Position numbers and translations under genes: made by a program. This document shows, in pieces, positions 5,262 through 41,815 of a stretch of DNA of 61,088 bases. Under the pieces are notes generated by a model, which searched no databases, was not told the DNA's origin, and worked only from the letters and a program-made list of their open reading frames with translations. The stretch lies in contig CADBDH010000014.1 in NCBI GenBank assembly GCA_902793405.1, positions 1 through 61,088 on the forward strand, read 5' to 3'. Source of the stretch: an uncultured Bacteroidales bacterium (GTDB lineage Bacteria > Bacteroidota > Bacteroidia > Bacteroidales > Muribaculaceae). Position 1 is the first letter of the stretch, and every line of letters starts with the position of its first letter.

Positions 5262-6548
5262 ATGAATCGGAAGGATTTTGAGATTATGGCCCCTGTGGGC
5301 TCTTGGGAATCGCTATATGCCGCCCACCAGGGTGGTGCCGATGCCATCTACTTTGGCATCGAGGGCCTGAATATGCGTTCGCGCTCCAGCGTCAACTTCA
5401 CGCTCGAGGATCTGCGCACCATCGCCCAGTGGTGCCACGAGCACGGCATGAAGAGTTACCTGACGGTGAACACCATCGTCTATGACGAGGACATGGACTA
5501 CATGCGCCAGATTGTCACTGCCGCCCGCGATGCCCAGGTGAGTGCCATCATCGCCAGCGACATGGCCACCATCCTATTTGCCCGCAGCATCGGCGTGGAA
5601 GTGCACATTTCCACCCAGGTCAACGTGAGCAACAGCGAGGCCGTGCGCTACTACAGCCAGTGGGCCGATGTCATGGTACTGGCCCGCGAGCTGAACCTGG
5701 AGCAGGTGACCAAAATCACCCATTTCATCGAGGAAAATGACGTTCGCGGCCCTCACGGCGAGCGTGTCAGGCTGGAGATGTTCTGCCACGGTGCGCTGTG
5801 CATGGCAGTGAGTGGCAAGTGCTACATGAGTCTGCACCAGGAGAACACCAGCGCCAACCGCGGAGCCTGCCGCCAGATCTGTCGACGCGGCTATCGCGTC
5901 ACCGACCTGGTCAACGGCGATGAGCTCAACATCGAGAACAAATACATCATGTCGCCCAAGGATCTGAAGACCATCCACTTCCTCAACAAGATGGTGGATG
6001 CCGGCGTGACCGTCTTCAAGATTGAAGGCCGTGCGCGCGGGCCCGAATATGTGCGCACCGTTGCGGGCTGCTATGACGAGGCGTTGCGGGCCATCTGCGA
6101 CGGTACCTACACCGACGAGCGCATCGACGAGTGGAACGAGCGACTGGGCAAGGTCTTCAACCGCGGCTTTTGGGACGGTTACTACATGGGACAACGCCTG
6201 GGCGAATGGTCGGCCAAGTACGGCTCCAGCGCCACCAGGGTAAAAGTCTATGCCGCCAAGGGCATCCGCTATTACAGCAAACTGGGTGTCGCCGAGTTCC
6301 TGATGGAGGCCAGCGAGCTGCACGTGGGCGACGAGGCGTGGATCATCGGCCCCACGACGGGTGCCATCCCGTTGACCATCGAGGAAATACGCGTGGACCT
6401 CAAGCCTGTGGAAAAGACCGTCAAGGGCGAACACTTCTCCATCGCCGTGCCCGAGAAAATACGTCCCAGCGACAAACTCTACCTGTGGCGCCCCGTCACC
6501 CCCAAGGACGCAACGCCGCCACCTCCCACAACAGCCTCTTGTGAATAA
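5262..6548 (+). CDS. Peptidase U32 family protein (TrhP/YegQ-like)
   Basis: A 428-residue U32-family protein. The N terminus (FEIMAPVGSWESLYAAHQGG) is the family's barrel start, and the cysteine-rich signature lies near residues 169-205 (MFCHGALCMAVSGKCYMS, then NRGACRQICRRGY). U32 members were once called collagenases. Characterised relatives such as TrhP and RlhA instead hydroxylate tRNA or rRNA bases, using these cysteines for an iron-sulfur centre. The length is close to TrhP, but I cannot tell TrhP from RlhA by reading. The stop codon TAA forms the first bases of the terminator stem at 6546-6590. Confidence 0.85.
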   Translation: MNRKDFEIMAPVGSWESLYAAHQGGADAIYFGIEGLNMRSRSSVNFTLEDLRTIAQWCHEHGMKSYLTVNTIVYDEDMDYMRQIVTAARDAQVSAIIASDMATILFARSIGVEVHISTQVNVSNSEAVRYYSQWADVMVLARELNLEQVTKITHFIEENDVRGPHGERVRLEMFCHGALCMAVSGKCYMSLHQENTSANRGACRQICRRGYRVTDLVNGDELNIENKYIMSPKDLKTIHFLNKMVDAGVTVFKIEGRARGPEYVRTVAGCYDEALRAICDGTYTDERIDEWNERLGKVFNRGFWDGYYMGQRLGEWSAKYGSSATRVKVYAAKGIRYYSKLGVAEFLMEASELHVGDEAWIIGPTTGAIPLTIEEIRVDLKPVEKTVKGEHFSIAVPEKIRPSDKLYLWRPVTPKDATPPPPTTASCE

Positions 6549-6615: not shown

Positions 6616-9486
6616 CTATCTGTCCCACGTGAAGACGAAACGTCCACCGCCATAGAGATCGCTTCCAACTTTCAATAAAAAGTGAACATCATAGGTATTG
6701 CCACTTTGCTCGACATAGCAGTAGTTAGGATAAGCGCTGGTATAGAAGGCATAATATCCCCAGTAATTAAGCGATTCACCGTCAGGAACACTGATACTGC
6801 CATCGTTATTCAGTTCAAATACCCAGTTAGAGTCATCGCCCTGGCCATTGGAGTAGCCAGCCGGATAAACGTAGGACAGAGGAGAAATAATACAATAGGT
6901 ATTATCAGTACCTCTCTTTTTCATAATCGGAACATTGTTCGCAGTATAACCGTCGTCCCAAGTGTAGTCGGTAAAAGTGCATGTCCCGGCATCTTCCCAT
7001 TCACCAGCCATTGCCCCCTTGAAGGTAATAGTGGTTGAGGTAATTTGAGGCTGCCCTGGAATTGCCGTTGCGATGTCGGCACTCGAGAGTTTGAGCACCA
7101 CTGAAAAATCGTCAAAAGGTTGAATATGATGACTATACACCTCTACCTGTGTCGTCAGTTCACCATCCTTGAAAATGGCATATCCGTCCCCAACATTAAC
7201 ATTGTCGGGTGCATCAACTAATGATACTGTAGCCCGGTACTCGCCTTGGGAAACCCGACGCGTCAGGGTAACCCAAACCGAACAGTCATAATAGTTGGAG
7301 ACGCCTTCGTAGGATGCCGACTCGAAAGAGATATGCTGGCCCGCAGGATTACCATTCTCGCACTTGACCTCGACATTGGTCGTGAGGATTCGCCCGCTCA
7401 TGGAACCGTTATTAATGTCATAAGGTGAAAGACCCAGTGTACAAGAATAGGTGTTTCCAAGCTCTAAGTTTCTACCTGTAATGGTGACCTCGGCAGTATT
7501 CTTTCCATCATTGAAAGTAGCGGTTGTACTTACATTCAATCCGTTGGCATTGATCACCCGAATCGGCACAATATACCTTCCGCTGGTTGTTGAGCGAGTC
7601 AACGTCAGTTTGTATTCAAACGAACTTGCGGCCGTGGTGAGATGATATTCAGTTTGAGCAAATGACACATTCTGTTCACCAGTAGCAATGTCGCTGCCGT
7701 CGGGATAATCGCCTAGCGGATTCTGGTCATAGTTGATGCTCATGTTATTGTTTTCCATAAATTCACTGAATGGTATCGTCATCACCCAGGGATAACTCTC
7801 GGGATCTTGCAACGAACGGTCAGTGAGCAAGAGCGAAGCGGGCCAGCCTTCCTCGGCGTTACGTTCAAAGCCCTGGTGCAAGCGACGGATGGTGTAGATG
7901 CGGCCATCCTCGCCCCACAGCTCGATGCGGCGCTGCAACAGGATTTCCTCAAGCAACGAGCCCGTCTCGGTGGTCGTGAGTGCACCCAACGACGTACCTG
8001 TCTTGTTGCAGGTGTAACCAGGAACGCGCTTAGTCATCAACTGATTGAGGTAATTCTTGGCCAAGGTGGTCTGGCCTCGACGACAAGCCGCCTCGGCAGC
8101 GGTGAGGTACATCTCCTCGACACGCATGTAGATATAATCACCAAGCCATAGGTCAATATTGGAGAAACTAAACTTATTCTGCACATATCCACCTGTGCCA
8201 TAGTAGTTATCAGAATCCCACCAGGCGCGACGGGCATCATTATCGCTCATCTTATTGAACAACCATTTGGAAATCTGCTTGGGGGCACGCTGGGCATAGG
8301 CACCATTTACATCCATGTGGGTGAAGTACGAAGCATAATAGGTGACCTGGTTTTCAGGAATTTCGGCACCCCACATCACATTACCGGCCTGGGCATTATT
8401 CAGGCCCATGAACGAGGGCACATCGAGGATGCTCTTGCCACTGGCATTGATTGCACTGACTGCCGAGTTATAGGCAGTAACCCAGTCCTCCTTGACCAGA
8501 GCGATGCGGGCTTGAAGGCCTAGAGCCACGGCATAACCGATGTGTTCAGGCCGCAACTGGTCTTTACCCTGTAACAGGCTGACAGCTTGAGTGATATCAC
8601 TATTAATTTGGTTATAGACCTGAGTGACCGTTGCGCGGGGCTGTCCTGTAGAGCCATTGAATTCAGTGCCTGTGAACAGGGGAACACAGGGATCACTCTC
8701 ATGGCCCTTATAGGTGCGGGCAAACCACTGTGAGAGCATAAAATAGCTATAGGCACGCAGGGCGTATGCCTGGCCCACGTAATAGTTTACCAGGTTAGTC
8801 GGACCTGTGATATCGTTTTTCTGGGAGATAATGCTGTTGGCCTCGGCAATACAGGTGTAGTAGGCCGTCCATAAGTCATAGCTGCGCCATGATGAACTGG
8901 TGTAATAGTCCTTGACATTGTACAACGCATCATACCAAAACCATCCCGAACCTTGGGCAGCCATAATCATATCATCGCCCATGAGTTCGGCTGCCAACGT
9001 ATGGGCTTGAATTCCAAAAGCCTGATGGCTATTGCCTGTTGTTGACCAGCCTGGCGTGCGCAGTTGCCTGTAGAGGTTGTTCATGGCATTGGCCAGTTCC
9101 ACTGTTCCCATGCGTGTTTCACTGGTGCCGGAGAGCAACCGGTCAATCAGTTCGGTCACGTCACTGATGTTGGTATTTCCGTCACCGTCAACATCACCGT
9201 TGAGACCATAAACATTATTTGAGAGTAAAGCATCAATCAGTTCGGTCAAGTCACTGATGTTCATCGTGCCGTCAAGGTCAACATCACCCACAATAACAGG
9301 ATTGAGGGCAAATCGCGGAGCCTGCGCCCCGGCCTTAATGGCTGCGGGAGCGCCAAAGACATCATTCACATTGGCCACTTCGGGCATACTGAAGTTGCCA
9401 GCCCAAGACGACGCAACGACACCCAGCAATGTCATTGCCAGGGCCATCAATCGCCTGATGGGAAAAAGAGTCATTCGAGTTTTCAT
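6616..9486 (-). CDS. Dockerin-SusD fusion protein 1
   Basis: A 956-residue secreted protein. Residues 1-30 form a Sec signal with no lipobox cysteine (LLGVVASSWAG). Residues 67-120 hold two dockerin-like calcium loops (GDVDLDGTMNISDLTELID and GDVDGDGNTNISDVTELID). Residues about 125-600 are SusD/RagB-like: QAYALRAYSYFML, DYIYMRVEEMYLTAAEAA and LQRRIELWGEDGRIYTIRR are family hallmarks. Residues about 605-830 look like two Calx-beta-like sandwiches, and 830-956 form a C-terminal module shared with the next gene. SusD proteins are normally lipoproteins that cap a SusC transporter and bind glycans. Here the lipid anchor and SusC are absent. The fold is clear; ligand and location are unknown. Confidence 0.85.
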   Translation of the reverse strand: MKTRMTLFPIRRLMALAMTLLGVVASSWAGNFSMPEVANVNDVFGAPAAIKAGAQAPRFALNPVIVGDVDLDGTMNISDLTELIDALLSNNVYGLNGDVDGDGNTNISDVTELIDRLLSGTSETRMGTVELANAMNNLYRQLRTPGWSTTGNSHQAFGIQAHTLAAELMGDDMIMAAQGSGWFWYDALYNVKDYYTSSSWRSYDLWTAYYTCIAEANSIISQKNDITGPTNLVNYYVGQAYALRAYSYFMLSQWFARTYKGHESDPCVPLFTGTEFNGSTGQPRATVTQVYNQINSDITQAVSLLQGKDQLRPEHIGYAVALGLQARIALVKEDWVTAYNSAVSAINASGKSILDVPSFMGLNNAQAGNVMWGAEIPENQVTYYASYFTHMDVNGAYAQRAPKQISKWLFNKMSDNDARRAWWDSDNYYGTGGYVQNKFSFSNIDLWLGDYIYMRVEEMYLTAAEAACRRGQTTLAKNYLNQLMTKRVPGYTCNKTGTSLGALTTTETGSLLEEILLQRRIELWGEDGRIYTIRRLHQGFERNAEEGWPASLLLTDRSLQDPESYPWVMTIPFSEFMENNNMSINYDQNPLGDYPDGSDIATGEQNVSFAQTEYHLTTAASSFEYKLTLTRSTTSGRYIVPIRVINANGLNVSTTATFNDGKNTAEVTITGRNLELGNTYSCTLGLSPYDINNGSMSGRILTTNVEVKCENGNPAGQHISFESASYEGVSNYYDCSVWVTLTRRVSQGEYRATVSLVDAPDNVNVGDGYAIFKDGELTTQVEVYSHHIQPFDDFSVVLKLSSADIATAIPGQPQITSTTITFKGAMAGEWEDAGTCTFTDYTWDDGYTANNVPIMKKRGTDNTYCIISPLSYVYPAGYSNGQGDDSNWVFELNNDGSISVPDGESLNYWGYYAFYTSAYPNYCYVEQSGNTYDVHFLLKVGSDLYGGGRFVFTWDR

Positions 9487-9546
9487 TGTCTTATAGATTT
9501 TATAATAATTAATAATTAATGGCTTGGAGATTCAATATACCATTTA

Positions 9547-9577
9547 CAAAGGTAGTGTTTATTATGATAAATCCAAA
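9547..9577 (-). promoter_or_regulatory. Promoter of dockerin-SusD gene 1
   Basis: Minus-strand TACCTTTG (9547-9554) and TTTG (9574-9577), 19 bases apart. The leader to the ATG at 9486 is roughly 55 bases. The gene therefore has its own promoter and need not be co-transcribed with its upstream paralogue. Confidence 0.7.
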
Positions 9578-9670
9578 ATAATCCGCCTGATTTGGCCGTT
9601 TTTTTGATTTTGAGGACAATGCTTTTGGCTTACAGGCCGTCTTGTGTTTGAGAGCGAGATGCGTCACGTC

Positions 9671-9712
9671 AATAATAGTGGGCAGCCCTATGCAGGACTG
9701 CCCACTATTGTT
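9671..9712 (-). terminator. Terminator after dockerin-SusD gene 2
   Basis: A 15-bp stem (9671-9685 with 9698-9712, one G-T pair) with a 12-base loop lies 27 bases past the stop of the minus-strand gene at 9739. It separates the two paralogues. Confidence 0.6.
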
Positions 9713-9738
9713 ATAGTAAATTCAAGGTGTGTCGTCGG

Positions 9739-12594
9739 TTATCTGTTCCACGTGAATGCGATGTGGCCACCTTGATACAATTGTCCATCTTGATTAAGAA
9801 TGAAATACACATCATAGGTGTTGCCGTCACGGGTGACGTAGCAATAGCTCGGATAGGTCGCACTGAGGTAATAGCCTCGATATCCCCAGTAGTCAAGATC
9901 CCACAGACCCTCGACAGGTGTAATCGTGCCGTCGGCATTCAGCGTAAACGTCCAGTCGGCCGTGCTTGGATTAGATATTATCCCCTGATACACCGCATAC
10001 AAGGGTGAAACGATGCGGTAGGTGTTCGAGCCTTTATTCTTCTTGACGGGAACGTTTTGGGCAGAATAGGGTTCAGGGTCATTCCAAGTGTAATCCACGA
10101 AGGTGCACGTTCCTGCCGATACCCACTCACCTTCAGTAAAGTTGAGTGTGACCGTGGTCGAGGTGATTTGCCCACCCAAACCCGGATTGGCGGTAGCCAC
10201 ATCGGCGTCTGACAGGTTCACAGTGCAGGTATAAGTATTACCCACTTGCATTTGGTCGAATATCACATGGGTTGTAGCAGTGCTTTGCCCTGCCTCAAAG
10301 AGGACATCCGAATTCTCGAGGGCCACATTGCCCTGAGCGTCACCGATCGATAGAGTAGCCCTGTAGGAATGGGAAGTCACCGCACGCTTCAACGTGATGG
10401 GCACAGAGTAGGAGGTGCCGGATATTTCACTATCCGAAACGCTCATCTCCTGGGATGCTGTCTGGAATGAAATGTTCTGCCCATCGGGGTTGATATTCTC
10501 ACAAACGACCGTTACGTTGGTAGACGTTATTCGACCAGGAGCCGTGCCGTTTGAGATATCAGCTGGTGAGAGTGTCAATGTTCCAGTATAAGTATGACCC
10601 AGTTCCATTCCCGATACCGTGACCTGAGCCGTTGCTGTGCTGTAGCCATTAATGAAGGTGACAAGCCCTGTACCTATATCCATGTTTTCACCGTTCAATA
10701 TCACTAAGGCCGAATAAGTGCCCTGGGTGCTTGAACGTTTTAATGTAATGTCCAACCGGGTACTGCTCGAGGCCGTTTCTAGATAATATTCAGCGTTCTC
10801 GAATGACACATTCTGCGGGCCCTCGGCCACAAAGATTGCATCAACGTAATCGCTCAAGGGGTTCTGGTCATAATTGATATTCATATTGGCATTGCCCTTG
10901 AACTCAGTCAATGGTATTGTCAACACCCATGGGTAACTCTCGGGGTCTTCCAACGAACGGCTGCCGAGGAGCAGCTGACTGGGCCAACCATCTTCGGATT
11001 TGCGTTCAAAGCCTTGACGCAGACGGCGGATGGTGTAGATGCGGCCATCCTCGCCCCACAGTTCGATGCGGCGCTGCAACAGGATTTCCTCCAGCAATGA
11101 GCCAGTTTCAACAGTGGTCAAAGTGCCCAAATCGTTACCGGTCTTTGTGCAGGAATAACCCGGAACACGCTTCGCCATCAGGTTGGTGAGGTATTGGCGT
11201 GCCACGGAGGTCTGTCCCTGACGGCAAGCAGCCTCGGCTGCCGTGAGATACATCTCCTCGACGCGCATGTAGATGTAATCGCCACCCCACTCGGTGCCTT
11301 CAATGATGTCAAATTTGTTCTGGACCATCGCGTCGCTGGCACCGTTGCCGGTGGTGTTTTCTTTCCACCATGCACGGCGAGTGTCATTATCAGCAACCTT
11401 GGCATACAACCATTTGGTAATCTGCTTGGGTGCTGTTGCTCCATAGGTTTTATCAGTGCTCATGTGGGCAAACAACGAGGCCCAATTGCGTAATTGATCG
11501 GCAGGGATATCGGCACCCCACATGACATTGCCGGCATAGGCATCGTTCATGCCGATGAAATCGGACACATTCATAATGTCCTTTCCGCTGGCGGCAATAG
11601 CGGCAACAGCCGAGTTATAGGCCTTGGCCCAGTCCTCCTCGACAAGAGCGATGCGGGCACGCAAGCCTAAGGCTACGGCATAGCCGATGTGGTCGGGCAC
11701 CATCTGAACAGTACCGTTCAACAATGTGACGGCTTGGTTGATATCGGCATCAATCTGGGCATAGACCTCCGACACCTTAGAACGCGGCGCTCCTGTTGAG
11801 CCGTTAAAGAGGAGGCCAGTAAACAAGGGCACGCAAGCGTCGCTCTCATGGCCCTTGTAGGTGCGGGCGAATGACTGTGCAAGCATGAAGTAGCTGTAGG
11901 CTCGGATGGCATAGGCCTGGCCCTTGATATAATTCTGCTCACTGGTTGGGCCGGTCATCGATTGGGCCGCCTCCAGGATGTAGTTGGCATTGGCAATCCA
12001 GGTGTAATAGGCATTCCACAAGTCAGTACTGCGCCAAAGCGTGGAATTATAACGCTGCTTCACATTATAAGCGGCATCAAACCAAAACCATCCACTGCCC
12101 ATGCTACCAATGATCATGTCGTCGCCCATAAGCTCGGCCATCAGATTGAAGGCGCAGATGCCGAAGGACTGGTGCCAATTACCTGTTGTCGTCCATCCCT
12201 CGGTGCGCATCGACTGATAAATCTCATTGAGGTCATAGAGCCCTTTTCCGTAGGTATAGCCATTCGTACCCTTCAGCAGCATGTCTATCATTTCGGTCAC
12301 GTCACTGATGTTGACCGAGCCATCCAAGTTTACATCGGCATTGGATGAATAGGAGGTTGAACCGTTCAGCAGCATGTCAATCATGACGGTCACGTCGCTG
12401 ATGTTGACCAAACCGTCGATATTCACATCACCGGAGCGGGTTGCCATGGGCACACGTGCTGCCATGAGTTTGGCAGGCACTTCATTTTCCCCACATATCG
12501 CCTCGTGCGTAAAACTTTGAGCACAAACGCTTGCTCCGAGGCACAACAAGGCAACCGATAACAAATGACGAAGGAAGTTTGAACGTTTTTTCAT
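9739..12594 (-). CDS. Dockerin-SusD fusion protein 2
   Basis: A 951-residue paralogue of the preceding gene with the same order of parts: signal peptide (1-25, cleavage likely after ASVCA), dockerin-like pair at 55-108 (GDVNIDGLVNISDVTVMID and ADVNLDGSVNISDVTEMID), SusD body (about 115-590), beta-sandwich repeats, and a C-terminal module ending GGHIAFTWNR. Cys24 follows SV, which is a poor lipobox, so signal peptidase I is more likely. The longer reading from 12624 adds ten residues before MKKRSNFL, which looks like the true start. No SusC-like gene is adjacent. Glycan binding is inferred from the SusD fold only. Confidence 0.85.
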   Translation of the reverse strand: MKKRSNFLRHLLSVALLCLGASVCAQSFTHEAICGENEVPAKLMAARVPMATRSGDVNIDGLVNISDVTVMIDMLLNGSTSYSSNADVNLDGSVNISDVTEMIDMLLKGTNGYTYGKGLYDLNEIYQSMRTEGWTTTGNWHQSFGICAFNLMAELMGDDMIIGSMGSGWFWFDAAYNVKQRYNSTLWRSTDLWNAYYTWIANANYILEAAQSMTGPTSEQNYIKGQAYAIRAYSYFMLAQSFARTYKGHESDACVPLFTGLLFNGSTGAPRSKVSEVYAQIDADINQAVTLLNGTVQMVPDHIGYAVALGLRARIALVEEDWAKAYNSAVAAIAASGKDIMNVSDFIGMNDAYAGNVMWGADIPADQLRNWASLFAHMSTDKTYGATAPKQITKWLYAKVADNDTRRAWWKENTTGNGASDAMVQNKFDIIEGTEWGGDYIYMRVEEMYLTAAEAACRQGQTSVARQYLTNLMAKRVPGYSCTKTGNDLGTLTTVETGSLLEEILLQRRIELWGEDGRIYTIRRLRQGFERKSEDGWPSQLLLGSRSLEDPESYPWVLTIPLTEFKGNANMNINYDQNPLSDYVDAIFVAEGPQNVSFENAEYYLETASSSTRLDITLKRSSTQGTYSALVILNGENMDIGTGLVTFINGYSTATAQVTVSGMELGHTYTGTLTLSPADISNGTAPGRITSTNVTVVCENINPDGQNISFQTASQEMSVSDSEISGTSYSVPITLKRAVTSHSYRATLSIGDAQGNVALENSDVLFEAGQSTATTHVIFDQMQVGNTYTCTVNLSDADVATANPGLGGQITSTTVTLNFTEGEWVSAGTCTFVDYTWNDPEPYSAQNVPVKKNKGSNTYRIVSPLYAVYQGIISNPSTADWTFTLNADGTITPVEGLWDLDYWGYRGYYLSATYPSYCYVTRDGNTYDVYFILNQDGQLYQGGHIAFTWNR

Positions 12595-12831: not shown

Positions 12832-14901
12832 TCATTTCTTTTTGGCCGATTGAGTTTTCTTCTTGGCGGGAGCTTTGCGCTTGGGTGCCTTGAGTCGCAG
12901 CACCTGGGCACTGCGGGCCGGCAAGTAGAGCTTGAGCCATCCCAGGTGGGCATCGGCATACAGGCCGTCGTACTCGGTCAGGTGGTTCACCTTGCTGTCG
13001 ATGTTGCCATAGCCGCCATAGCGGGGATCGTCGCTGTCAAACACGCCCTGATACTCGCCCTCGGGGGCCAGCATGGGATAATCGACATGAGACTGGGTGG
13101 GACTGAAGTTGAACACAAACACGAGGTCGCCGCGCATATAGGCGAGTACCTGGTCATCGTCCTTGTCCCACAGCTTGCGCACGGGCAGCTGTTGGAACTT
13201 CTTAACACCGCCAATGAGGTGAATCATGTCTTTGTCCCAGTTGTTGAGGAACTGGTACTTCAAGTCCTCACGGTCGACCAGATCCCACTGGCGACGGGCA
13301 TACTTGTAGCTCCAGCCATTGCCCTCGCGCGGGAAATCGATCCACTCGGGATGACCCCACTCGTTGCCCATGAAGTTGAGATAGGCGCCGTTGATGAGCG
13401 AGGCGGTAACGAGGCGAATCATCTTGTGCAACGCCATGCCGCGGTCCACAGTGCCGTCGTGGTCGCCCGTCATCATGTGCCAGTACATCTCCTTGTCGAT
13501 GAGGCGGAAGATGATGGTCTTGTCGCCCACGAGTGCCTGGTCGTGGCTCTCGGCATAGGAAACGGTCTTTTCGTCGGCGCGGCGGTTGGTCAGTTCCCAG
13601 AAAATTGAAGTGGGCTTCCAGTCCTCGTCCTTGCGCTCCTTGATGGTCTTGATCCAGTAGTCGGGGATGCCCATCGCCATGCGGTAGTCAAAACCGATGC
13701 CGCCGTCCTTAAACGTGCGGGCCAAGCCAGGCATACCGCTCATCTCCTCGGCAATGGTGATGGCATGCGGGTTGATGGTGTGGATCAGCACGTTGGCCAG
13801 CGTGAGATAGGTGATGGCGTTGGTGTCCTCGCCGCCATTGTAGTAGTCGTCATAACTGCCGAAGGCCTGTCCCAGACCGTGGCTGTAGTAGAGCATCGAG
13901 GTCACGCCATCGAAACGGAATCCGTCAAACTTGTATTCCTGCAACCAGAACTTGCAGTTGGAGAGCAGGAAGTTGAGCACGGCGTTTTTGCCGTAGTCAA
14001 AGCACAACGAGTCCCATGCGGGATGCTCGCGCTTGTCGTCGCCATAGAAGTAGAGGTCACCCGTACCGTCGAAGCAGCCCAAGCCCTCGACCTCGTTCTT
14101 CACTGCATGGGAGTGGACGATGTCCATGATGACGGCCACACCGGCGGCATGGGCGTCATCGATGAGGTGTTTCAACTCCTCGGGCGTACCGAATCGTGAC
14201 GAGGCGGCATAGAAACTCGACACATGGTAGCCGAACGAGCCGTAGTAGGGATGCTCTTGAATGGCCATGATCTGGATGGCATTGTAGCCGTCGGCGACGA
14301 TGCGAGGCAGGACGTTTACGCGGAATTCCTCGTAGGTACCCACGCCCTCGCGGTTCTGGGCCATACCGATATGGCATTCATAGATGAGCAGCGGTTCGGT
14401 ATTGGGCACGAAGTCCTTGACCTGGAACTCGTAGAGCTGCTCGGGAGCCCACACCTGGGCCGAGAAGATATAGGTCTTCTCGTCCTGCACCACACGCGTG
14501 GCATAGGCCGGGATGCGTTCGCCTTCCCCACCCTGCCAGTGGACACGCAACTTGTACAGGTCGCCATGACGCATGGCGCGCGCGGGCAACACGATTTCCC
14601 AATTACCGTCCTCGAGGCGTTTCAACTTGTAGGGAGCACACTCGCGCCAGTCGTTGAACTGCCCGATAAGGTAAATCTCGGTCGCATTGGGCGCCCACTC
14701 GCGGAACACCCACTTGCCGTCACCCGTGCGGTGCAGGCCATAGTAGTTATAGGCATTGGCAAACTCGACAAGGTTCCCCGTGCCACCCGTGAGCTCGGCT
14801 ATCTTGTTCACGGCATCCTGATGACGCCCGTTGATGGCATCGCTGTAAGGCTCCAGCCACGGGTCATCGTTGATAATCGCAAGATTCTTTTTCTTCCTCA
14901 T
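12832..14901 (-). CDS. glgB: 1,4-alpha-glucan branching enzyme
   Basis: A 689-residue GH13 branching enzyme. It transfers alpha-1,4 glucan segments to alpha-1,6 positions in glycogen. An N-terminal CBM48-like region (WVFREWAPNATEIYLIGQFNDW) precedes the TIM barrel. The catalytic motifs are DGFRFDGVTSM (nucleophile Asp near 325), ITIAEEMSG (acid Glu near 384) and YAESHDQALVGD (near 451). The sequence style is that of the eukaryote-like branching enzymes common in Bacteroidetes. The last 18 or so residues are a Lys/Ala/Pro tail (KAPAKKKTQSAKKK), unusual for the family. It is divergent from the zinc peptidase gene and has its own terminator. Glycogen storage in the cytoplasm is the expected role. 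Confidence 0.93.
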   Translation of the reverse strand: MRKKKNLAIINDDPWLEPYSDAINGRHQDAVNKIAELTGGTGNLVEFANAYNYYGLHRTGDGKWVFREWAPNATEIYLIGQFNDWRECAPYKLKRLEDGNWEIVLPARAMRHGDLYKLRVHWQGGEGERIPAYATRVVQDEKTYIFSAQVWAPEQLYEFQVKDFVPNTEPLLIYECHIGMAQNREGVGTYEEFRVNVLPRIVADGYNAIQIMAIQEHPYYGSFGYHVSSFYAASSRFGTPEELKHLIDDAHAAGVAVIMDIVHSHAVKNEVEGLGCFDGTGDLYFYGDDKREHPAWDSLCFDYGKNAVLNFLLSNCKFWLQEYKFDGFRFDGVTSMLYYSHGLGQAFGSYDDYYNGGEDTNAITYLTLANVLIHTINPHAITIAEEMSGMPGLARTFKDGGIGFDYRMAMGIPDYWIKTIKERKDEDWKPTSIFWELTNRRADEKTVSYAESHDQALVGDKTIIFRLIDKEMYWHMMTGDHDGTVDRGMALHKMIRLVTASLINGAYLNFMGNEWGHPEWIDFPREGNGWSYKYARRQWDLVDREDLKYQFLNNWDKDMIHLIGGVKKFQQLPVRKLWDKDDDQVLAYMRGDLVFVFNFSPTQSHVDYPMLAPEGEYQGVFDSDDPRYGGYGNIDSKVNHLTEYDGLYADAHLGWLKLYLPARSAQVLRLKAPKRKAPAKKKTQSAKKK

Positions 14902-31147: not shown

Positions 31148-32032
31148 TCAATTGCCGTTCAGGAGCCTGTCGATGAGCGAAGTTACGTCGGCAATGTTCA
31201 CGCCGCCATCGCCGTCAACGTCGGCAGTCGCAGGGGCGTCAATGGCGTTGAGCAGGATGTCAATCAGGGCGGTTACGTCGGCAATGTTCACACTGCCATC
31301 GCCGTCAACGTCGCCCGGAATGGGAGCCGTGCCACCGGCAATGGTGTAATGGAAGTTGAGTTCATGAACGTCTTCGCCCAGGGTGTAGATGATAATGGCA
31401 CCGGTGGGAATGGTCAGCACATACTCGCCGGGGGTGGTCACCTCATCGGGGAAGTACATCAGCACGTTGTAACGCACATCATACATGTCGGCGCTCCAGG
31501 TCTCGCCCGTCGTGGTGTTGGTCAACTTGGCCTCCATGCCGTACTCGATCTCGCCCACCATGAGCGGCAACGAGACTGTGAAGTTCTGCAGGCTTTCCAC
31601 AACGCCCTCGGCGGGGTCGATGGTGATTTGCTCATAGAACGACTCGGGGGTGACGGGGATGACGAACCTGAGTGTCAACGGCAGCAGCGTCTGGCCGTTC
31701 ACAACGAGTGATGACTCGGGAATGTTCAGGAAATAGTGACCAGGGGTGGTAAAGCACTCCTCGAAGTCAATAATCACGGTCTTGCCGTCGGCATCGGCAC
31801 GCATGGTGCCCTCGACGGTGCCGCCACCACCCTTCTCCAGCGTGGGGATGCAATTAGGGCGAACCACGACGGGCAGGTCGGCAAAGGTAATGGTGAAGTG
31901 CTGCAAACTCGTTACCTCTCCCTCGGCAGGAGTGATCTGCATTGCCTCATAAGGGTCAACTGCAGCAAACGCTGATCTGCTGTAGCACACAGCCATGATC
32001 AACATGGCCAAAAGTTGTACGGTTTTTCTCAT
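31148..32032 (-). CDS. Ig-like repeat protein with C-terminal dockerin
   Basis: A 294-residue secreted protein. Signal peptide 1-23; two Ig-like repeats (MQITPAEGEVTSLQHFTITF and EQITIDPAEGVVESLQNFTV) closely matching the first two of the 962-residue neighbour; then a C-terminal dockerin-like pair (GDVDGDGSVNIADVTALID and ADVDGDGGVNIADVTSLID, about 236-293). Dockerins bind cohesins through two calcium loops, and both loops here keep the Asp/Asn positions. It looks like a duplicate of the neighbour in which the tail was exchanged for a dockerin. It is divergent from the beta-helix gene at 32381. Confidence 0.85.
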   Translation of the reverse strand: MRKTVQLLAMLIMAVCYSRSAFAAVDPYEAMQITPAEGEVTSLQHFTITFADLPVVVRPNCIPTLEKGGGGTVEGTMRADADGKTVIIDFEECFTTPGHYFLNIPESSLVVNGQTLLPLTLRFVIPVTPESFYEQITIDPAEGVVESLQNFTVSLPLMVGEIEYGMEAKLTNTTTGETWSADMYDVRYNVLMYFPDEVTTPGEYVLTIPTGAIIIYTLGEDVHELNFHYTIAGGTAPIPGDVDGDGSVNIADVTALIDILLNAIDAPATADVDGDGGVNIADVTSLIDRLLNGN

Positions 32033-32380: not shown

Positions 32381-34789
32381 ATGAGAAAACGATTCATTCT
32401 GGCAACACTGATTGCTATGGCGGGTGTTTTAGGCTATGCACAACAGACGATGTGGATTCACACGGGTCATGTGCATTGGGCCTACAACACCGACGCGGTG
32501 GGCACGATGCCGTATTCGTCGGCCAATCTGCTCACAGTTCTTGAAAAGGGCTTTACCCTAGCCGACGTGGACAGCGTGACCGTTGCGAACGAGACGTTCG
32601 CCGACGATAATGTCCTCGTCAAGTACAACAGCTACATCGCCGACGTCTATGTCGCCGGCAATATCGCCAACCACATCACCGCCCAGGTGACGGGACCGCG
32701 CGTTGCCGTGATGCAGGATGCCGACGTGGCTACCGAGTACACCTACACCCTGCAGGGCACCAGCAGCACCGGCTGCTTCTACCATGCGGGCTACTACAAG
32801 ATGACACTCGTGCTCAACGGCGTGAACCTGACCAACCCCGACAGCGCCGCCATCAACATCCAGAACAGCAAGCGTATCGCCGTGCAGCTGGCTGACGGCA
32901 CGACCAATACCCTGGCCGACGGTGCCAACAACACCAAGAAGGCAGCCTTCCTGGTGAAGGGCCATGCCGAGTTTGCCAAGGGCGGCTCGCTGACCATCAC
33001 GGGCAACAAGAAGCACGCGCTGGCCTGCAACGAGTACATGGAGGTGAAGAAGACCGTGGGCACCATCACCATCACGAGTGCCGTGGCCGACGCCATCAAC
33101 GTGAGTCAGTACTTCCAGATGAACGGCGGTACCATCAATATCCAAAGCTGCGGTGATGACGGCATCCAAGTCGATGCCGAGGACACTTCTCTTCCTGAGG
33201 AGGACGGCCACGTGCTCATCAAGGGCGGCACGCTCACCATCAACGGTAGCGCTGCAGGCACCAAGTGCATCAAGGCCGAGGGCAACGTGGATATCGAGGG
33301 CGGCACGCTGACGCTGAAGCACACCGGCATTCCCGTTTGGGACGCTGAAGATAGCAAGATCAAGGAGCCGACAGCCATCGGCACCGACCGCAACCTTACC
33401 ATCAACGGCACCGAGGCCATCGTCAACATCACCATGACCGGCAACGGTGCGCGCGGCATGAAGTGCGACAGCACGATGACCGCCACCGCCGGCACCATCG
33501 ACATCAACTGCTCGGGACAGCCTTGGGCCTATAGCACTGTAGATACCTCCAACGTCAAGTGTGCCAAGGCCGACTACGCCTTCATCCTGAACGGTGCCAA
33601 CTTCAAGTGCACCACGACCAAGGACGAGGCCGAAGGCATCCACAGCGAGGGCACCGTCCTCATCAGTGACGGCACGTTGACACTCAACACCTATGACCAC
33701 GGCATCAAGAGCGACGGCAACATGGACATCACCGGCGGCACCATCAACTTCACCGTCACCGGTCCTGCCAGCAAGGCCATCAAGCCCACCGGCGACCTGC
33801 ACATCACGGGCGGTACCATCAGCGGCACCGTGAGCGGCGGCGGCGAGAGCTACAATGACAATACCGTGAGCGGCTCCGCCTGCATCAAGGGAAAAGCCAA
33901 CTGCGTGATTGACGGCGGCACATTCGACCTCAAGGCTACCGGTCAAGGCGGCAAGGGCATGAACTTCAATGGCACGCTCACTGTCAACGACGGTAACATC
34001 AAGGTGACCACCACGGGCAGCAGGTACGGCTCCAGCAGTGGAGGCGGCTATAATCCTTGGAACCCATGGGGCGGCGGTGAAAGCAGTGGCGACACCAGCT
34101 CATCACCCAAGGGCATCCGCGCCGAGGGCAATATCACCATCAACGGCGGCACATTCACCATTTCATGTACTGGCGGTGAGGGCGCCGAGGGCATTGAGTC
34201 CAAGTCACAAATTACCGTCAACGATGGATATATCGAGGCTACGACCTATGATGACGCCATGAATGCTGGTGGCGACCTGTACATCAAGGGCGGATACGTC
34301 TATGCTGTAGCCACTAACAACGATGCCATTGACTCCAACGGCAATATGTACCTGAGTGGCGGTTTCATCTTCTGCGCAGGTAGTGAAGAGGGTGCTGACG
34401 CCAATACCGAGGGTCAAAAGAAGCTCTATATCCAGCGCGGTGTCACCCTGATGGCCTACGGCCGCAGCATGGGTGCCCTGGAGAGCGGCGCTAGCATGGC
34501 TCAGACGTGCTATAAAGTTTCCACCTATACCGCAGGCACCCGCTACGCACTCTATAACGGCAGCAATGTAGCGTTTGCCGTAACTGCACCGACCATCAAT
34601 GGTGGCGGTGGCGGTTGGATTGCTGCTGGTCCTGGCGGTCCTGGCGGTCAGAGCACCTCATTCGTTGTCACGACACCTGGCACCACCTCGCTCAAGTCGG
34701 GTGTCACCTTCAGCGGCAACTCACTGTGGAGCGGCAAGGGCAGCACCAATGCAACCGGTGGCAGCACTGTCTCGCTCACTCAGATGTAA
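32381..34789 (+). CDS. Cthe_2159-like beta-helix carbohydrate-binding protein
   Basis: An 802-residue secreted protein with a Sec signal (1-20, AGVLGYAQ). From about residue 110 on it is built of short beta-helix turns, with repeated phrases such as INGGTINI, ITGGTINF, IKGGTLTINGSAAGTKCI and AEGIHSEGTVLISDGTLTLN. This is the pattern of the carbohydrate-binding domain family named after Cthe_2159, a right-handed beta-helix that binds acidic pectin-type sugars and calcium. Glycine-rich stretches lie near residues 550-570 and 745-760. No catalytic motif is seen. A small dockerin protein follows 50 bases on, probably in the same transcript. The ligand is inferred from the family. Confidence 0.85.
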   Translation: MRKRFILATLIAMAGVLGYAQQTMWIHTGHVHWAYNTDAVGTMPYSSANLLTVLEKGFTLADVDSVTVANETFADDNVLVKYNSYIADVYVAGNIANHITAQVTGPRVAVMQDADVATEYTYTLQGTSSTGCFYHAGYYKMTLVLNGVNLTNPDSAAINIQNSKRIAVQLADGTTNTLADGANNTKKAAFLVKGHAEFAKGGSLTITGNKKHALACNEYMEVKKTVGTITITSAVADAINVSQYFQMNGGTINIQSCGDDGIQVDAEDTSLPEEDGHVLIKGGTLTINGSAAGTKCIKAEGNVDIEGGTLTLKHTGIPVWDAEDSKIKEPTAIGTDRNLTINGTEAIVNITMTGNGARGMKCDSTMTATAGTIDINCSGQPWAYSTVDTSNVKCAKADYAFILNGANFKCTTTKDEAEGIHSEGTVLISDGTLTLNTYDHGIKSDGNMDITGGTINFTVTGPASKAIKPTGDLHITGGTISGTVSGGGESYNDNTVSGSACIKGKANCVIDGGTFDLKATGQGGKGMNFNGTLTVNDGNIKVTTTGSRYGSSSGGGYNPWNPWGGGESSGDTSSSPKGIRAEGNITINGGTFTISCTGGEGAEGIESKSQITVNDGYIEATTYDDAMNAGGDLYIKGGYVYAVATNNDAIDSNGNMYLSGGFIFCAGSEEGADANTEGQKKLYIQRGVTLMAYGRSMGALESGASMAQTCYKVSTYTAGTRYALYNGSNVAFAVTAPTINGGGGGWIAAGPGGPGGQSTSFVVTTPGTTSLKSGVTFSGNSLWSGKGSTNATGGSTVSLTQM

Positions 34790-34838
34790 TCTCAAGTAGT
34801 TATAAACAATGACATCATTATTTAAAAGACTTAGAAAT

Positions 34839-35264
34839 ATGAAAAAGACGATTATAACGATGCTGATCGCACTGGTGGCCATCTGCGCCAGCGCCGAGAC
34901 CTATAGCTACCTGAAGTTCACCAAGACCAACGGCTCGACCGTGACCTGCTCGGTAGAAGGCCTCAAGATCACCTACGATAACACCAACGTGACCGTCACC
35001 AATGCCGAGGGCACGACAACCATCGCCCTGACCGAGGTGCAGGACATGTACTTCAGCAACGAGGCTGGAGGCAGCGAAATGCAGCCTGGCGACGTGAACA
35101 TGGACGGCAGCGTGAACATTGCCGACGTGACCGTGCTCATTGACTACCTGCTGAGCAGCAATGCCAGCAATGTCAACCTGACAGCAGCCGATGTTGACGG
35201 TGATGGCGATGTTAATATCGCCGACGTGACCCAGCTCATCGATATGCTCCTGGGAAATGATTGA
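34839..35264 (+). CDS. Small secreted dockerin protein
   Basis: A 141-residue protein: signal peptide (1-20, AICASAETYS), a short beta-rich region (about 21-75), then a dockerin-like pair at 83-141 (GDVNMDGSVNIADVTVLID and ADVDGDGDVNIADVTQLID). The frame is open from 34809, but MKKTIITML at 34839 is the natural signal start. It follows the beta-helix gene and shares its terminator at 35292, so the two probably act together. It could serve as a detachable docking piece for the beta-helix partner (inference). Confidence 0.85.
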   Translation: MKKTIITMLIALVAICASAETYSYLKFTKTNGSTVTCSVEGLKITYDNTNVTVTNAEGTTTIALTEVQDMYFSNEAGGSEMQPGDVNMDGSVNIADVTVLIDYLLSSNASNVNLTAADVDGDGDVNIADVTQLIDMLLGND

Positions 35265-38650: not shown

Positions 38651-38680
38651 TTGTCAATCGTTCAGGATTCTATACATTTG
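38651..38680 (+). promoter_or_regulatory. Promoter of M16 peptidase gene 1
   Basis: TTG (38651-38653) and TACATTTG (38673-38680), 19 bases apart. A frame from TTG 38651 would begin inside this promoter and is rejected as a start. The same box TACATTTG drives the second paralogue. Confidence 0.65.
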
Positions 38681-38737
38681 CAACCGCAAAGAAAACATCA
38701 TTATATATCAATCATTTATAAAAAGAGTTATATGACT

Positions 38738-41563
38738 ATGAAGAAATTATTTTCGATGTTGCTGCTGATGCTCATGGTATTCAGCGCCAACGTGATGATG
38801 GCACAGGAAATGCCGCCCATCCCCGTGGACGATCAGGTGCGCATCGGTCATCTGGACTGCGGACTGACCTACTACATCCGCCACAACGATTATCCCGAGC
38901 ACCGCGTGAACTTCTACATCGCCCAGCGCGTAGGCTCCATCCAGGAGGAGGAGAGCCAGCGCGGTCTCGCTCACTTCCTGGAGCACATGGCCTTCAACGG
39001 CAGTGAGCACTTCAACGGCGAGGGCAAGGGTATCATCGACTACACCCGCTCGCTGGGTGTGAACTTCGGTGGTGACCTGAATGCCTACACCAGCATTGCC
39101 GAGACCGTCTATAACATCAACGACGTGCCCAGCACCCGCCAGAGCGCCATCGACTCGTGTCTGCTCATCCTCAAGGACTGGAGCACCGGTCTGCTGCTCA
39201 CCGACGAGGAGATCGACAAGGAGCGCGGCGTGATCCACGAGGAGTGGCGTCTGGGCCAGAGCGCACAGATGCGCATGCTCGAGCGTCAGCTGGAAACCCT
39301 GTATCCCGATTCGAAGTTCGGCAAGCGCCTGCCCATCGGTCTGATGAGCGTGGTGGACAACTTCCCCTACAAGGACCTGCGCGACTACTACCACAAGTGG
39401 TATCGTCCCGACAACCAGGCCCTGGTCATCGTGGGTGACGTGGATGTGGACCACATCGAGGCCAAGATCAAGGAAATGTACGCCGGTTACACCCTTGATC
39501 CCAACGCCGCCCAGGTGACCCTCGAGCCCGTGCCCGACAACGACAAGCCCATTATCGTCGTTGACAAGGACAAGGAGCAGCAGTACAGCGACGTGAGCAT
39601 CATGTTCAAGCATGATGCCACCCCTAAGGAGGAGAAGGCCAACATGGAATACCTGATATCAGACTTCTTTACCGATCTGGCTACCAGCATGCTCAACCAG
39701 CGCCTGAGCGACCTGGCACAGGAGCCCGACTGCCCCTTCACCAACGCCTACTGCTATGACGGTCCATATATCCTCGCCAACTCCAAGGATGCCCTTACCG
39801 TTGACGTGATGCCCAAGGAGGGCCAGACCGAAGCCGCTACCCAGGCCGTTATCGTCGAGGTGATGCGTGCCGCCAAGCATGGCTTTACCGCCAGCGAGTA
39901 TGACCGCGCCCGTGACGAGGCCTTGAGCCAGCTGGAGAAGCGCTATAACAACCGCGACAAGATCAGCAACGAAAGCTTTGGCCGCCAGTACTGCAGCAAC
40001 TACCTGGACGGCGAGCCCATCCCCTCGATTGAAATGCTTTACCAGATCATGGGCCAAATCGCTCCCATGGTCCCCGTTGAGGCTATCAACGAACTGCTGC
40101 CCGAGCTCATCAGCACCGACGGCAAGAACCTCGTCATCACCAACTTCAACCAGGAGAAGGAAGGCGCCGTTTATCCCACCATCGAGGGTCTGCAGGCCGC
40201 CTACGAGGCTGCTGCCAGCGCCAATATCGAGCCCTACGTTGACAATGCAATCAACGAGCCCCTGATGGCCAAGATGCCCAAGAAGGGCAAGATCACCAAG
40301 GAGAGCGAGAACACCACCCTGGGTTACAAGGAACTGGAACTGAGCAACGGTGCACGCGTCATCCTCAAGAAGACCGACTTCAAGCAGGACGAAATCCGCA
40401 TGAGTGCCTTCCAGCGCGGCGGTCAGTCGCTCTACGGCGAGAATGACTGGGCCAATCTGAAGCTGATTGATGACCTCAACTCCTTCACCGGTGTGGGCAA
40501 CTTCTCCAACTCCGACCTCAAGAAGGCGCTTGCCGGCAAACAGGTCAACGTAGGCCTGACCATCGACCAGTTTACCGACCAACTGAGCGGTAACAGCACC
40601 ATCAAGGATCTGGAGACCATGTTCCAGCTCATCTACCTCAAGTTCACTGCTCTGACCAAGGACGAGAAGAAGTTCAACCAGACGATGACACTGATGGAGA
40701 CGCAGCTCAAGAATAAGGACCTCATGCCCGAGAGCGCCCTGAGCGACTCGCTGCAGTACATCTTGACCAACCGCAGCTGGCGCACCAAGCCCTTCAATGT
40801 CGATGACCTGAAGGCTGTCAACCTGGACCGCATCATGCAGATTGCCAAGGAGCGTACTGCCAATGCCGCCAACTACACCTTCACCTTCGTCGGCAACTTT
40901 GACGAGGCCGTTATCCGTCCTTTCATCGAGCAGTACATCGCCAGCCTGCCCGCCAAGAAGGGCGTGAAGAGCAACTGGGTGAACGATTTCGACATGCCCA
41001 AGGGACAGACCATCTGCCACTTCACCAAGAAGATGGAGTCGCCCAAGGAATATGAGGTTGTCATCTGGCACGACGGCAGCATGCCCTACAGCCTGGAGAA
41101 CGAAATCAAGGCCGACATCCTGGGTCAAGTGCTGAGCCGCGTCTATCTGCAGAAGATCCGCGAGGATGCCGGTGCAGCCTACTCCACCGAGGCTATGGGC
41201 CAGGTAGGCATCTCGGGCGGCAAGCCCCAGACACTGGTACTCGCCGTTTGCCCCGTGAACCCCGAGTTTGAGCAGATGGCACTGGATATCCTCAACCAGG
41301 AGATGGTCAATGCCGGCACCACCATCGATGCCACCGCATTTAACGAGGCCGTCGAGAACATGATCAAGGACTACAACACCAACATCAAGGAGAACTGGTT
41401 CTGGATGGGCATTCTCTCGAATTATCTAATGTACGGTTTTGACCAGATTACCGGTTATGAGCAGATTGTCAAGGCCCAGACGCCCGAGACCATTGCCGAG
41501 TTTGCACGCAAGCTTTACGGCGCCGGCAACAAGATTGAACTTGTAATGGCTCCCGAGAAGTAA
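38738..41563 (+). CDS. M16 family zinc metallopeptidase 1
   Basis: A 941-residue secreted peptidase of the pitrilysin/insulinase class. Signal peptide 1-23 (MVFSANVMMAQ). The inverted zinc motif HFLEH is at 79-83, with the third ligand probably in the EEIDKERGVIHEEW region near residue 162. A second, catalytically silent M16 half follows (LGYKELELSNGARVILKK near 525), and the family R/Y-type C-terminal signature is in YLQKIREDAGAAYS. It probably digests peptides in the periplasm. Start at 38738 (MKKLF); ATG 38732 is equally possible. It is the first of two tandem paralogues, each with its own promoter. Confidence 0.93.
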   Translation: MKKLFSMLLLMLMVFSANVMMAQEMPPIPVDDQVRIGHLDCGLTYYIRHNDYPEHRVNFYIAQRVGSIQEEESQRGLAHFLEHMAFNGSEHFNGEGKGIIDYTRSLGVNFGGDLNAYTSIAETVYNINDVPSTRQSAIDSCLLILKDWSTGLLLTDEEIDKERGVIHEEWRLGQSAQMRMLERQLETLYPDSKFGKRLPIGLMSVVDNFPYKDLRDYYHKWYRPDNQALVIVGDVDVDHIEAKIKEMYAGYTLDPNAAQVTLEPVPDNDKPIIVVDKDKEQQYSDVSIMFKHDATPKEEKANMEYLISDFFTDLATSMLNQRLSDLAQEPDCPFTNAYCYDGPYILANSKDALTVDVMPKEGQTEAATQAVIVEVMRAAKHGFTASEYDRARDEALSQLEKRYNNRDKISNESFGRQYCSNYLDGEPIPSIEMLYQIMGQIAPMVPVEAINELLPELISTDGKNLVITNFNQEKEGAVYPTIEGLQAAYEAAASANIEPYVDNAINEPLMAKMPKKGKITKESENTTLGYKELELSNGARVILKKTDFKQDEIRMSAFQRGGQSLYGENDWANLKLIDDLNSFTGVGNFSNSDLKKALAGKQVNVGLTIDQFTDQLSGNSTIKDLETMFQLIYLKFTALTKDEKKFNQTMTLMETQLKNKDLMPESALSDSLQYILTNRSWRTKPFNVDDLKAVNLDRIMQIAKERTANAANYTFTFVGNFDEAVIRPFIEQYIASLPAKKGVKSNWVNDFDMPKGQTICHFTKKMESPKEYEVVIWHDGSMPYSLENEIKADILGQVLSRVYLQKIREDAGAAYSTEAMGQVGISGGKPQTLVLAVCPVNPEFEQMALDILNQEMVNAGTTIDATAFNEAVENMIKDYNTNIKENWFWMGILSNYLMYGFDQITGYEQIVKAQTPETIAEFARKLYGAGNKIELVMAPEK

Positions 41564-41594
41564 TCCACAGGATTTATCGAAAGTCACTTTTCAA

Positions 41595-41640
41595 CAGGTG
41601 GCCGCAGGATGTAAGACATTCTTGCGGCCACCTGATTTTT
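41595..41640 (+). terminator. Terminator of M16 peptidase gene 1
   Basis: A 12-bp perfect stem (41595-41606 with 41623-41634) and a 16-base loop, then ATTTTT. Strong terminator, 31 bases after the stop. Confidence 0.88.
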
Positions 41641-41726
41641 GGGGCCCGAAAACAGATAAAACGTATAAAAATTTGACGGTTTTTTGTATGATATTTTGAC
41701 AAACAGGCATTTTGAGCACAAAAAAC

Positions 41727-41757
41727 TTGACAGGCAATGCTATTCTTCATACATTTG
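41727..41757 (+). promoter_or_regulatory. Promoter of M16 peptidase gene 2
   Basis: TTG (41727-41729) and TACATTTG (41750-41757), 20 bases apart, about 58 bases before the ATG. The same -7 octamer as for the first paralogue. Confidence 0.65.
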
Positions 41758-41815
41758 CAACAATCAAAGATGCCGACACTTATCAGTTTTTATCAACCAT
41801 AAAAATCAAACGATT

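Follow-up and report, generated by a model that had tools for sequence, protein, structure and literature searches.

SusD proteins are lipid-anchored lids of SusC, and in SusCD structures the N-terminal segment of SusD faces SusC. RagB is a component of a peptide transporter. Dockerins have been reported from rumen Bacteroidetes (PMC7480376, PMC6071333); the excerpts of both papers place them in PULs or on GH, CBM and DUF proteins, with no word of one inside a SusD. In its excerpt, PMC7480376 also cites moose- and cow-rumen papers for dockerins in PULs and calls their role there not defined. PMC5831590, in its excerpt, reports finding neither dockerins nor cohesins in its genome. Searches of the open PMC library turned up no paper that, judging by titles and abstract openings, describes a fusion of a dockerin with a SusD; subscription papers fall outside this scope and priority is not certain.

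The DNA that we analysed (hereafter the window) is a whole contig, C14, of 61,088 bp, in a genome of 3.19 Mb and 72 contigs. An earlier note had described two tandem SusD proteins of about 950 residues, with a dockerin behind the signal peptide, and this description was confirmed by Pfam matches above the cut-offs in proteins of 951 and 956 aa. The features are listed below together with the two flanking genes, which we take to be glgB and a peptidase U32 gene.

9739..12594, minus strand: dockerin-SusD-X gene, copy 1 (ATG, 951 aa; Pfam matches)
12520..12594, minus strand: signal peptide of copy 1, about residues 1-25, no lipobox (from the sequence; cleavage site by eye)
12274..12432, minus strand: dockerin of copy 1 with two Ca loops (PF00404, 36.4 bits; AF2 helices 65-77 and 96-108)
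10840..12243, minus strand: SusD body of copy 1, about residues 118-585 (PF14322, PF07980; best Foldseek matches are SusD structures)
9745..10815, minus strand: C-terminal beta region of copy 1 (homologous to X, which the ordinary locus encodes as a lipoprotein of its own; AF2 strands)
6616..9486, minus strand: dockerin-SusD-X gene, copy 2 (ATG, 956 aa; Pfam matches)
9133..9288, minus strand: dockerin of copy 2 (PF00404, 24.4 bits)
7687..9099, minus strand: SusD body of copy 2, about residues 130-600, approximate limits (Pfam)
6622..7674, minus strand: X-like C-terminal beta region of copy 2, approximate limits (homology to X)
12832..14901, minus strand: presumed glgB, conserved upstream neighbour, beside 18 of 19 related dockerin-SusD-X loci
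5262..6548, plus strand: presumed peptidase U32 gene, conserved downstream neighbour, near 17 of the 19

The two copies are 57% identical and share one layout, in which a signal peptide is followed by a dockerin, a SusD and beta domains that take up about 350 residues. Both Dockerin_1 matches exceed the curated Pfam cut-off of 22.9 bits, and so, against their own cut-offs, do SusD-like_3 (72.9 bits in copy 1, 62.4 in copy 2) and SusD_RagB (41.5 and 48.4 bits). By eye, both Ca loops are complete in copy 1 (DVNIDGLVNISD and DVNLDGSVNISD) as well as in copy 2 (DVDLDGTMNISD and DVDGDGNTNISD); a duplicated 12-residue Ca loop, a following helix and a score above the Pfam cut-off give them the sequence features of type I dockerins. 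The signal peptides look SPI-like by eye (VCA/Q and SWA/G), and a lipobox, described as missing in the earlier note, was found by script in neither copy. On the SusD-X proteins, neither Pfam nor NCBIfam gave a match to the T9SS type A sorting domain, and we recognised no known signal for crossing the outer membrane.

Against solved structures, phmmer matched copy 1 to the SusD 3lew (1.2e-21) and weakly to the dockerins 4fl4_A (8.7e-5), 1daq (0.001) and 2mte (0.0017). The AlphaFold2 model of copy 1, built on 20 sequences and of moderate quality (mean pLDDT 73, pTM 0.60), keeps two dockerin helices, each behind a Ca loop, followed by a helical SusD body and beta domains. The best PDB matches of this model in Foldseek are SusD proteins (3snx, 3lew, 8ypt and RagB 5cx8). 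NCX/CALX Calx-beta domains are also among the matches; they probably belong to the C-terminal part of the model, the match ranges on the query not being given. Elsewhere in the window, a Cthe_2159 carbohydrate-binding-domain protein (32381-34789) is followed by a small dockerin protein (34809-35264), another protein with a C-terminal dockerin lies nearby (31148-32032), and two M16 peptidase genes, for products of about 970-990 aa, stand in tandem at 38651-44647.

The pair had also been said to stand without an adjacent susC. Indeed, none of the 34 SusC-model matches of the genome lies on C14, and we rejected the idea that SusC is missing merely through a contig end, both genes being more than 6 kb from either end. 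Ten other PF14322 matches were found in this genome (one below the model cut-off), each adjoined by SusC or a SusC fragment. Leaving aside L006, at a contig end, where the script read another ORF, a lipobox was detected in eight of these SusDs by script and in a ninth (L011) by eye, and the dockerin motif in none of the nine. On contig C21 there is an ordinary SusC-SusD-X trio with lipoboxes, of a kind also present in relatives, whose SusD is 57-58% and whose X is 36-37% identical to the window proteins. SusC and a lipobox in relatives had been named beforehand as signs of a local error in the window; such a trio does exist, but it is a separate paralogous locus, and the window copies are thus a derived form and no error.

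Relatives were collected by scanning public genomes with an alignment of the two proteins; the best 80 of 90, together with the two window genes, gave 82 SusD ORFs, 59 without a dockerin and 23 with one. The kin genomes are MAGs from the rumen, variously named as Muribaculaceae, Prevotellaceae or Bacteroidales; from these mixed names we take the family to be Muribaculaceae. A lipobox is present in 58 of the 59 dockerin-less SusDs (the exception, L084, is an ORF without the usual start), and 55 have SusC within 300 bp; the four that do not (L088, L094, L096 and L118) start less than 600 bp from a contig end. No SusC stands beside any of the 23 dockerin forms in the available flanks (0-8.8 kb per side, 21 loci), an absence that is partial near contig ends because of these flank lengths (the right flank of L060 has 0 bases). 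One dockerin form, L055, shows a lipobox pattern, which lies within an SPI-like hydrophobic stretch and was judged false by eye. The order signal peptide, dockerin and SusD recurs at 19 other loci. A second architecture, in which BspA LRR precedes the dockerin and SusD, occurs at L065:6660-9710 and L074:8819-11731. Finally, the contig of L096 is labelled Clostridia and its SusD groups with Bacteroidales SusDs, possibly a binning error.

In the ordinary loci, X was recognised within 200 bp downstream of SusD in 39 of 59 cases, not recognised in 19, and one more locus sits at a contig end. Since X of the ordinary trio is homologous to the C-terminal part of the window proteins (about residues 595-950), these proteins are fusions of SusD and X. 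The C-terminal domains of orthologues fall into two sequence types at the same locus; in alignment A5 (columns about 900-1076) the two types are unlike, as if swapped. The SusD core is largely retained, with 136 of the 178 conserved sites of ordinary SusDs persisting at 90% or above across 21 dockerin forms. Nineteen of the 178 are kept in less than half; these include the lipidated Cys as well as a Pro-Thr close to the N-terminus of the mature protein, in the region taken by the dockerin. As read from these alignments, a signal peptide and dockerin took the place of the lipoprotein leader and of roughly the first 30 mature SusD residues, which agrees with the earlier placing of the dockerin at the position of the lipid anchor. 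The same comparison bears on the idea that SusD-X still partners a SusC encoded elsewhere, the dockerin being an accessory. The retained core and the related SusC on C21 of the same genome would suit such an arrangement, but the dockerin forms lack the anchor together with some 30 residues at the start of mature SusD, and a SusC gene is missing from the available flanks of all 23 dockerin forms, making a distant partner very improbable.

In the phylogenetic tree, 22 of the 23 dockerin forms make one clade (96/98), whose neighbours are 17 ordinary SusDs. L074 is placed elsewhere, on a long branch; a second origin of dockerin-SusD was not established by it, and a single origin was not rejected (p-AU 0.41). 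Within the dockerin clade, copy 1 falls near L052, L053 and L071 with modest support and copy 2 groups with L058 and L060. Given that the copies sit in different subgroups, the tandem pair of the window is probably no recent duplication. A family search of 297 genomes, with two candidates scored per genome, returned full-length dockerin forms from 11 genomes, all of the window's genus; it missed the ordinary paralogue (L009/L285) of the window's own genome, so its absences prove nothing. A match in a genome of another genus (G024), interrupted by stops, reaches into the N-terminal part and stands outside the count of 11.

The presumed glgB and U32 genes accompany 18 and 17, respectively, of the 19 other dockerin-SusD-X loci, and the sequences show loss of SusC linkage together with conservation at one chromosomal site. 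The glgB neighbour was not accepted as a hint at starch, being positional only. Over eight pairs, pN/pS ranges from 0.22 to 0.44 for the dockerin and from 0.18 to 0.34 for SusD; several of the pairs are close to saturation at synonymous sites. Looser than either are the C-terminal domains (0.27-1.24). By this measure both dockerin and SusD are under purifying selection. Decaying or misassembled SusD copies would account for the missing anchor and partner and for nothing else. The frames are open and full-length, the same neighbourhood is found in 18 of 19 relatives and pN/pS of dockerin and SusD is well below 1; local assembly error or decay, rejected on account of the 19 other loci with the same layout and of these ratios, is left with next to no probability.

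Dockerins are abundant in this genome. Scoring 150 of 270 candidates gave 153 Dockerin_1 matches, a few of which are halves of one dockerin; the same search exceeded the cut-off in two of 14 control genomes. Sixty stretches around dockerin matches, together with the window, contain 136 dockerin ORFs, and in 106 of these the dockerin lies within 25 residues of the ORF end. LRR_5 (28) and C10 peptidases (24) are the largest recognised Pfam groups among them; others include M6 and S8 peptidases, FGE, CotH and four alpha-amylases. In 149 genomes of the family, with 40 candidates scored per genome, each of the ten from this genus has at least 39-41 matches; dockerins are present in 34 of the 139 from other genera, with 1-7 each save for G001, which has 31. 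This genome of another genus is 85% complete and has no cohesin match.

The C10 peptidases allow a comparison with relatives outside the genus, where none of 28 ORFs (24 complete, 4 cut; best matches taken) has a dockerin. PF18962 is matched by 12 of these 24 complete ORFs (E <= 0.05), and the other tails look alike by eye. Inside the genus, we sampled 16 places among the matches listed (of 43), in five other genomes and unselected for dockerins. One of them (L242) has a dockerin end; the other 15 stretches hold 16 ORFs, two of them cut, and all 14 complete ones end in a dockerin. In the window's own genome, where stretches were chosen for dockerins, the dockerin is at the end in 22 of 25 C10 ORFs, further in in two and not found by the model in one. 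The loci compared in this and the same-genus genomes are L169-L228, L242 and L270-L284. Taken together, the C10 and SusD comparisons show that the same element, a dockerin, stands where relatives have a T9SS-like tail or a lipid anchor.

Do cohesins exist to receive these dockerins? The Pfam cohesin model found two above the cut-off in the window's genome, and in the genus it matched 46 of 101 genomes at E 0.001, 37 of them above the cut-off. We built a profile (A4) from genus matches, seeded from Pfam hits, and it recognised seven cohesins in this genome; one of them is a weak, partial match and the other six are strong. The cohesins of this genome lie on C11, C19 and C4. When eight proteins with A4 cohesins were scanned whole against Pfam, a cohesin was named in L183 only; because the Pfam model detects poorly here, the wider cohesin count is taken from A4. 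In the family sample, this profile matches every one of the ten genomes that belong to the genus, and 30 of the 139 from other genera, the latter with few or no dockerins. Among solved cohesins, A4 is closest to 5m2o (E 8.9e-5). A model of the cohesin region of a related locus (L100), built on three sequences, has an overall pLDDT of 52; between residues 21 and 140, blocks of ten residues reach 65-88. The first 19 Foldseek matches of this model are cohesin entries (E 4.4e-4 to 2.8e-3). Moreover, two genomes (G060 and G135) encode a protein with six tandem A4 cohesins and a C-terminal dockerin:

L237:1982-4738 and L238:177-2933: six-cohesin protein of 919 aa, beside a dockerin-cohesin protein of about 575 aa with a T9SS-like tail

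This protein was not found by the A4 search in the window's genome, where the examined stretches hold five cohesin ORFs, all with dockerins, one with two cohesins and the rest with one. The T9SS translocon gene sprA is present in this genome (2,616 bits), as are seven T9SS tails above the cut-off. On the cohesin proteins, the tails are hints at 12-13 bits in this genome and 16.9 bits in the dockerin-cohesin protein of G060, against a cut-off of 23, and 13 of the 14 control genomes also match at this level (12.0-16.9 bits).

Given that the dockerin replaces the lipoprotein leader and that cohesin-like domains are encoded in the same genome, docking instead of lipid anchoring of SusD-X, as the earlier note had proposed, is plausible. 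The account that we think somewhat probable starts from a SusC-SusD-X paralogue. SusD and the next gene X of the ordinary transport locus were fused, and a signal peptide and dockerin replaced the lipoprotein leader and some 30 mature residues, as the sequences show. The dockerin may be the genus's general retention tag for secreted proteins, by which SusD-X could plug into cohesin-bearing surface proteins. There it might present a ligand to other docked proteins instead of closing a SusC channel as its lid; candidate partners are C10 peptidases and LRR proteins, which form the largest recognised groups. Binding, surface location and function of SusD-X are predictions from sequence here. Against this account stand about seven cohesin matches for about 150 dockerins in the genome, the 31 dockerins of G001 with no cohesin, and cohesins in dockerin-poor genera.

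Alternatively, the dockerin could be a calcium-stabilised sorting or retention module that works without cohesins, through self-association or the secretion machinery, with SusD-X held at the surface or released in another way. The excess of dockerins over cohesins and the case of G001 argue for this, as does the position of C-terminal dockerins at the place of the T9SS-like tails of other genera. On the other hand, A4 cohesins are present in all ten sampled genus genomes, in two of them as six in tandem with a dockerin, in the manner of scaffoldins, and the dockerin of SusD-X is N-terminal, unlike that of C10; we regard a cohesin-free module as unlikely, if worth serious attention. More tentatively, dockerin-cohesin pairing might have taken over surface display in the genus, dockerins replacing the lipid anchor on SusD and the T9SS tail on C10. 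The cargo would then cross the outer membrane on dockerin-cohesin adaptors with T9SS-like tails, and a SusD lid would have become a scaffold-bound capture subunit. This wider scheme seems rather doubtful to us.

A periplasmic SusD-X is a different matter: Sec-exported, non-lipidated and with no recognised T9SS tail, the proteins could be soluble binding proteins behind the outer membrane. Their SPI-like signal peptides, the missing lipobox and the lack of a T9SS tail match in Pfam and NCBIfam all fit. Nonetheless, dockerins of the genus sit on C10 peptidases that have T9SS-like tails in other genera, and these enzymes would have to move inside too; we find a periplasmic location quite unlikely.

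Returning to the account in which SusD-X is docked at the surface, the nature of its ligand deserves a comment. The earlier note had spoken of glycan-binding subunits, and this specific part did not find support: beyond X, none of four neighbour genes scanned in three ordinary loci, a small sample, is a glycoside hydrolase, and two are peptidases (M6 in L087, C10 in L121). Because RagB is among the structural matches and peptidase genes lie near two ordinary loci, a peptide is no less likely than a glycan as the putative ligand.

A conserved SusD descendant without anchor and partner, and with a plug, amounts to a natural experiment on SusD minus its transporter. Additionally, few candidate cohesins and many cargo proteins make the purpose of Bacteroidota dockerins directly testable, and related genera show a clean swap between dockerin and T9SS-like tail.

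How, then, do these proteins compare with known systems? With the SusD/RagB family (PF14322, PF07980) the window proteins have the fold and the conserved core in common; they differ by having neither a lipid anchor nor a SusC partner gene, and by their N-terminal dockerin and fused C-terminal X domains. In sequence, the likeness to the cellulosome systems of Clostridia and Ruminococcus lies in the dockerin, which is of the Pfam type I and has both Ca loops, and, within the genus, in cohesin-like domains and a protein with six A4 cohesins. Unlike in cellulosomes, the host is a member of the Bacteroidota with a T9SS, LRR proteins and C10 peptidases make up the largest recognised dockerin groups, and a SusD is among the cargo. 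Finally, the T9SS type A sorting domain (PF18962/TIGR04183) has its C-terminal place on C10 peptidases in other genera, whereas in the genus of the window that place is held by a different domain, the dockerin.
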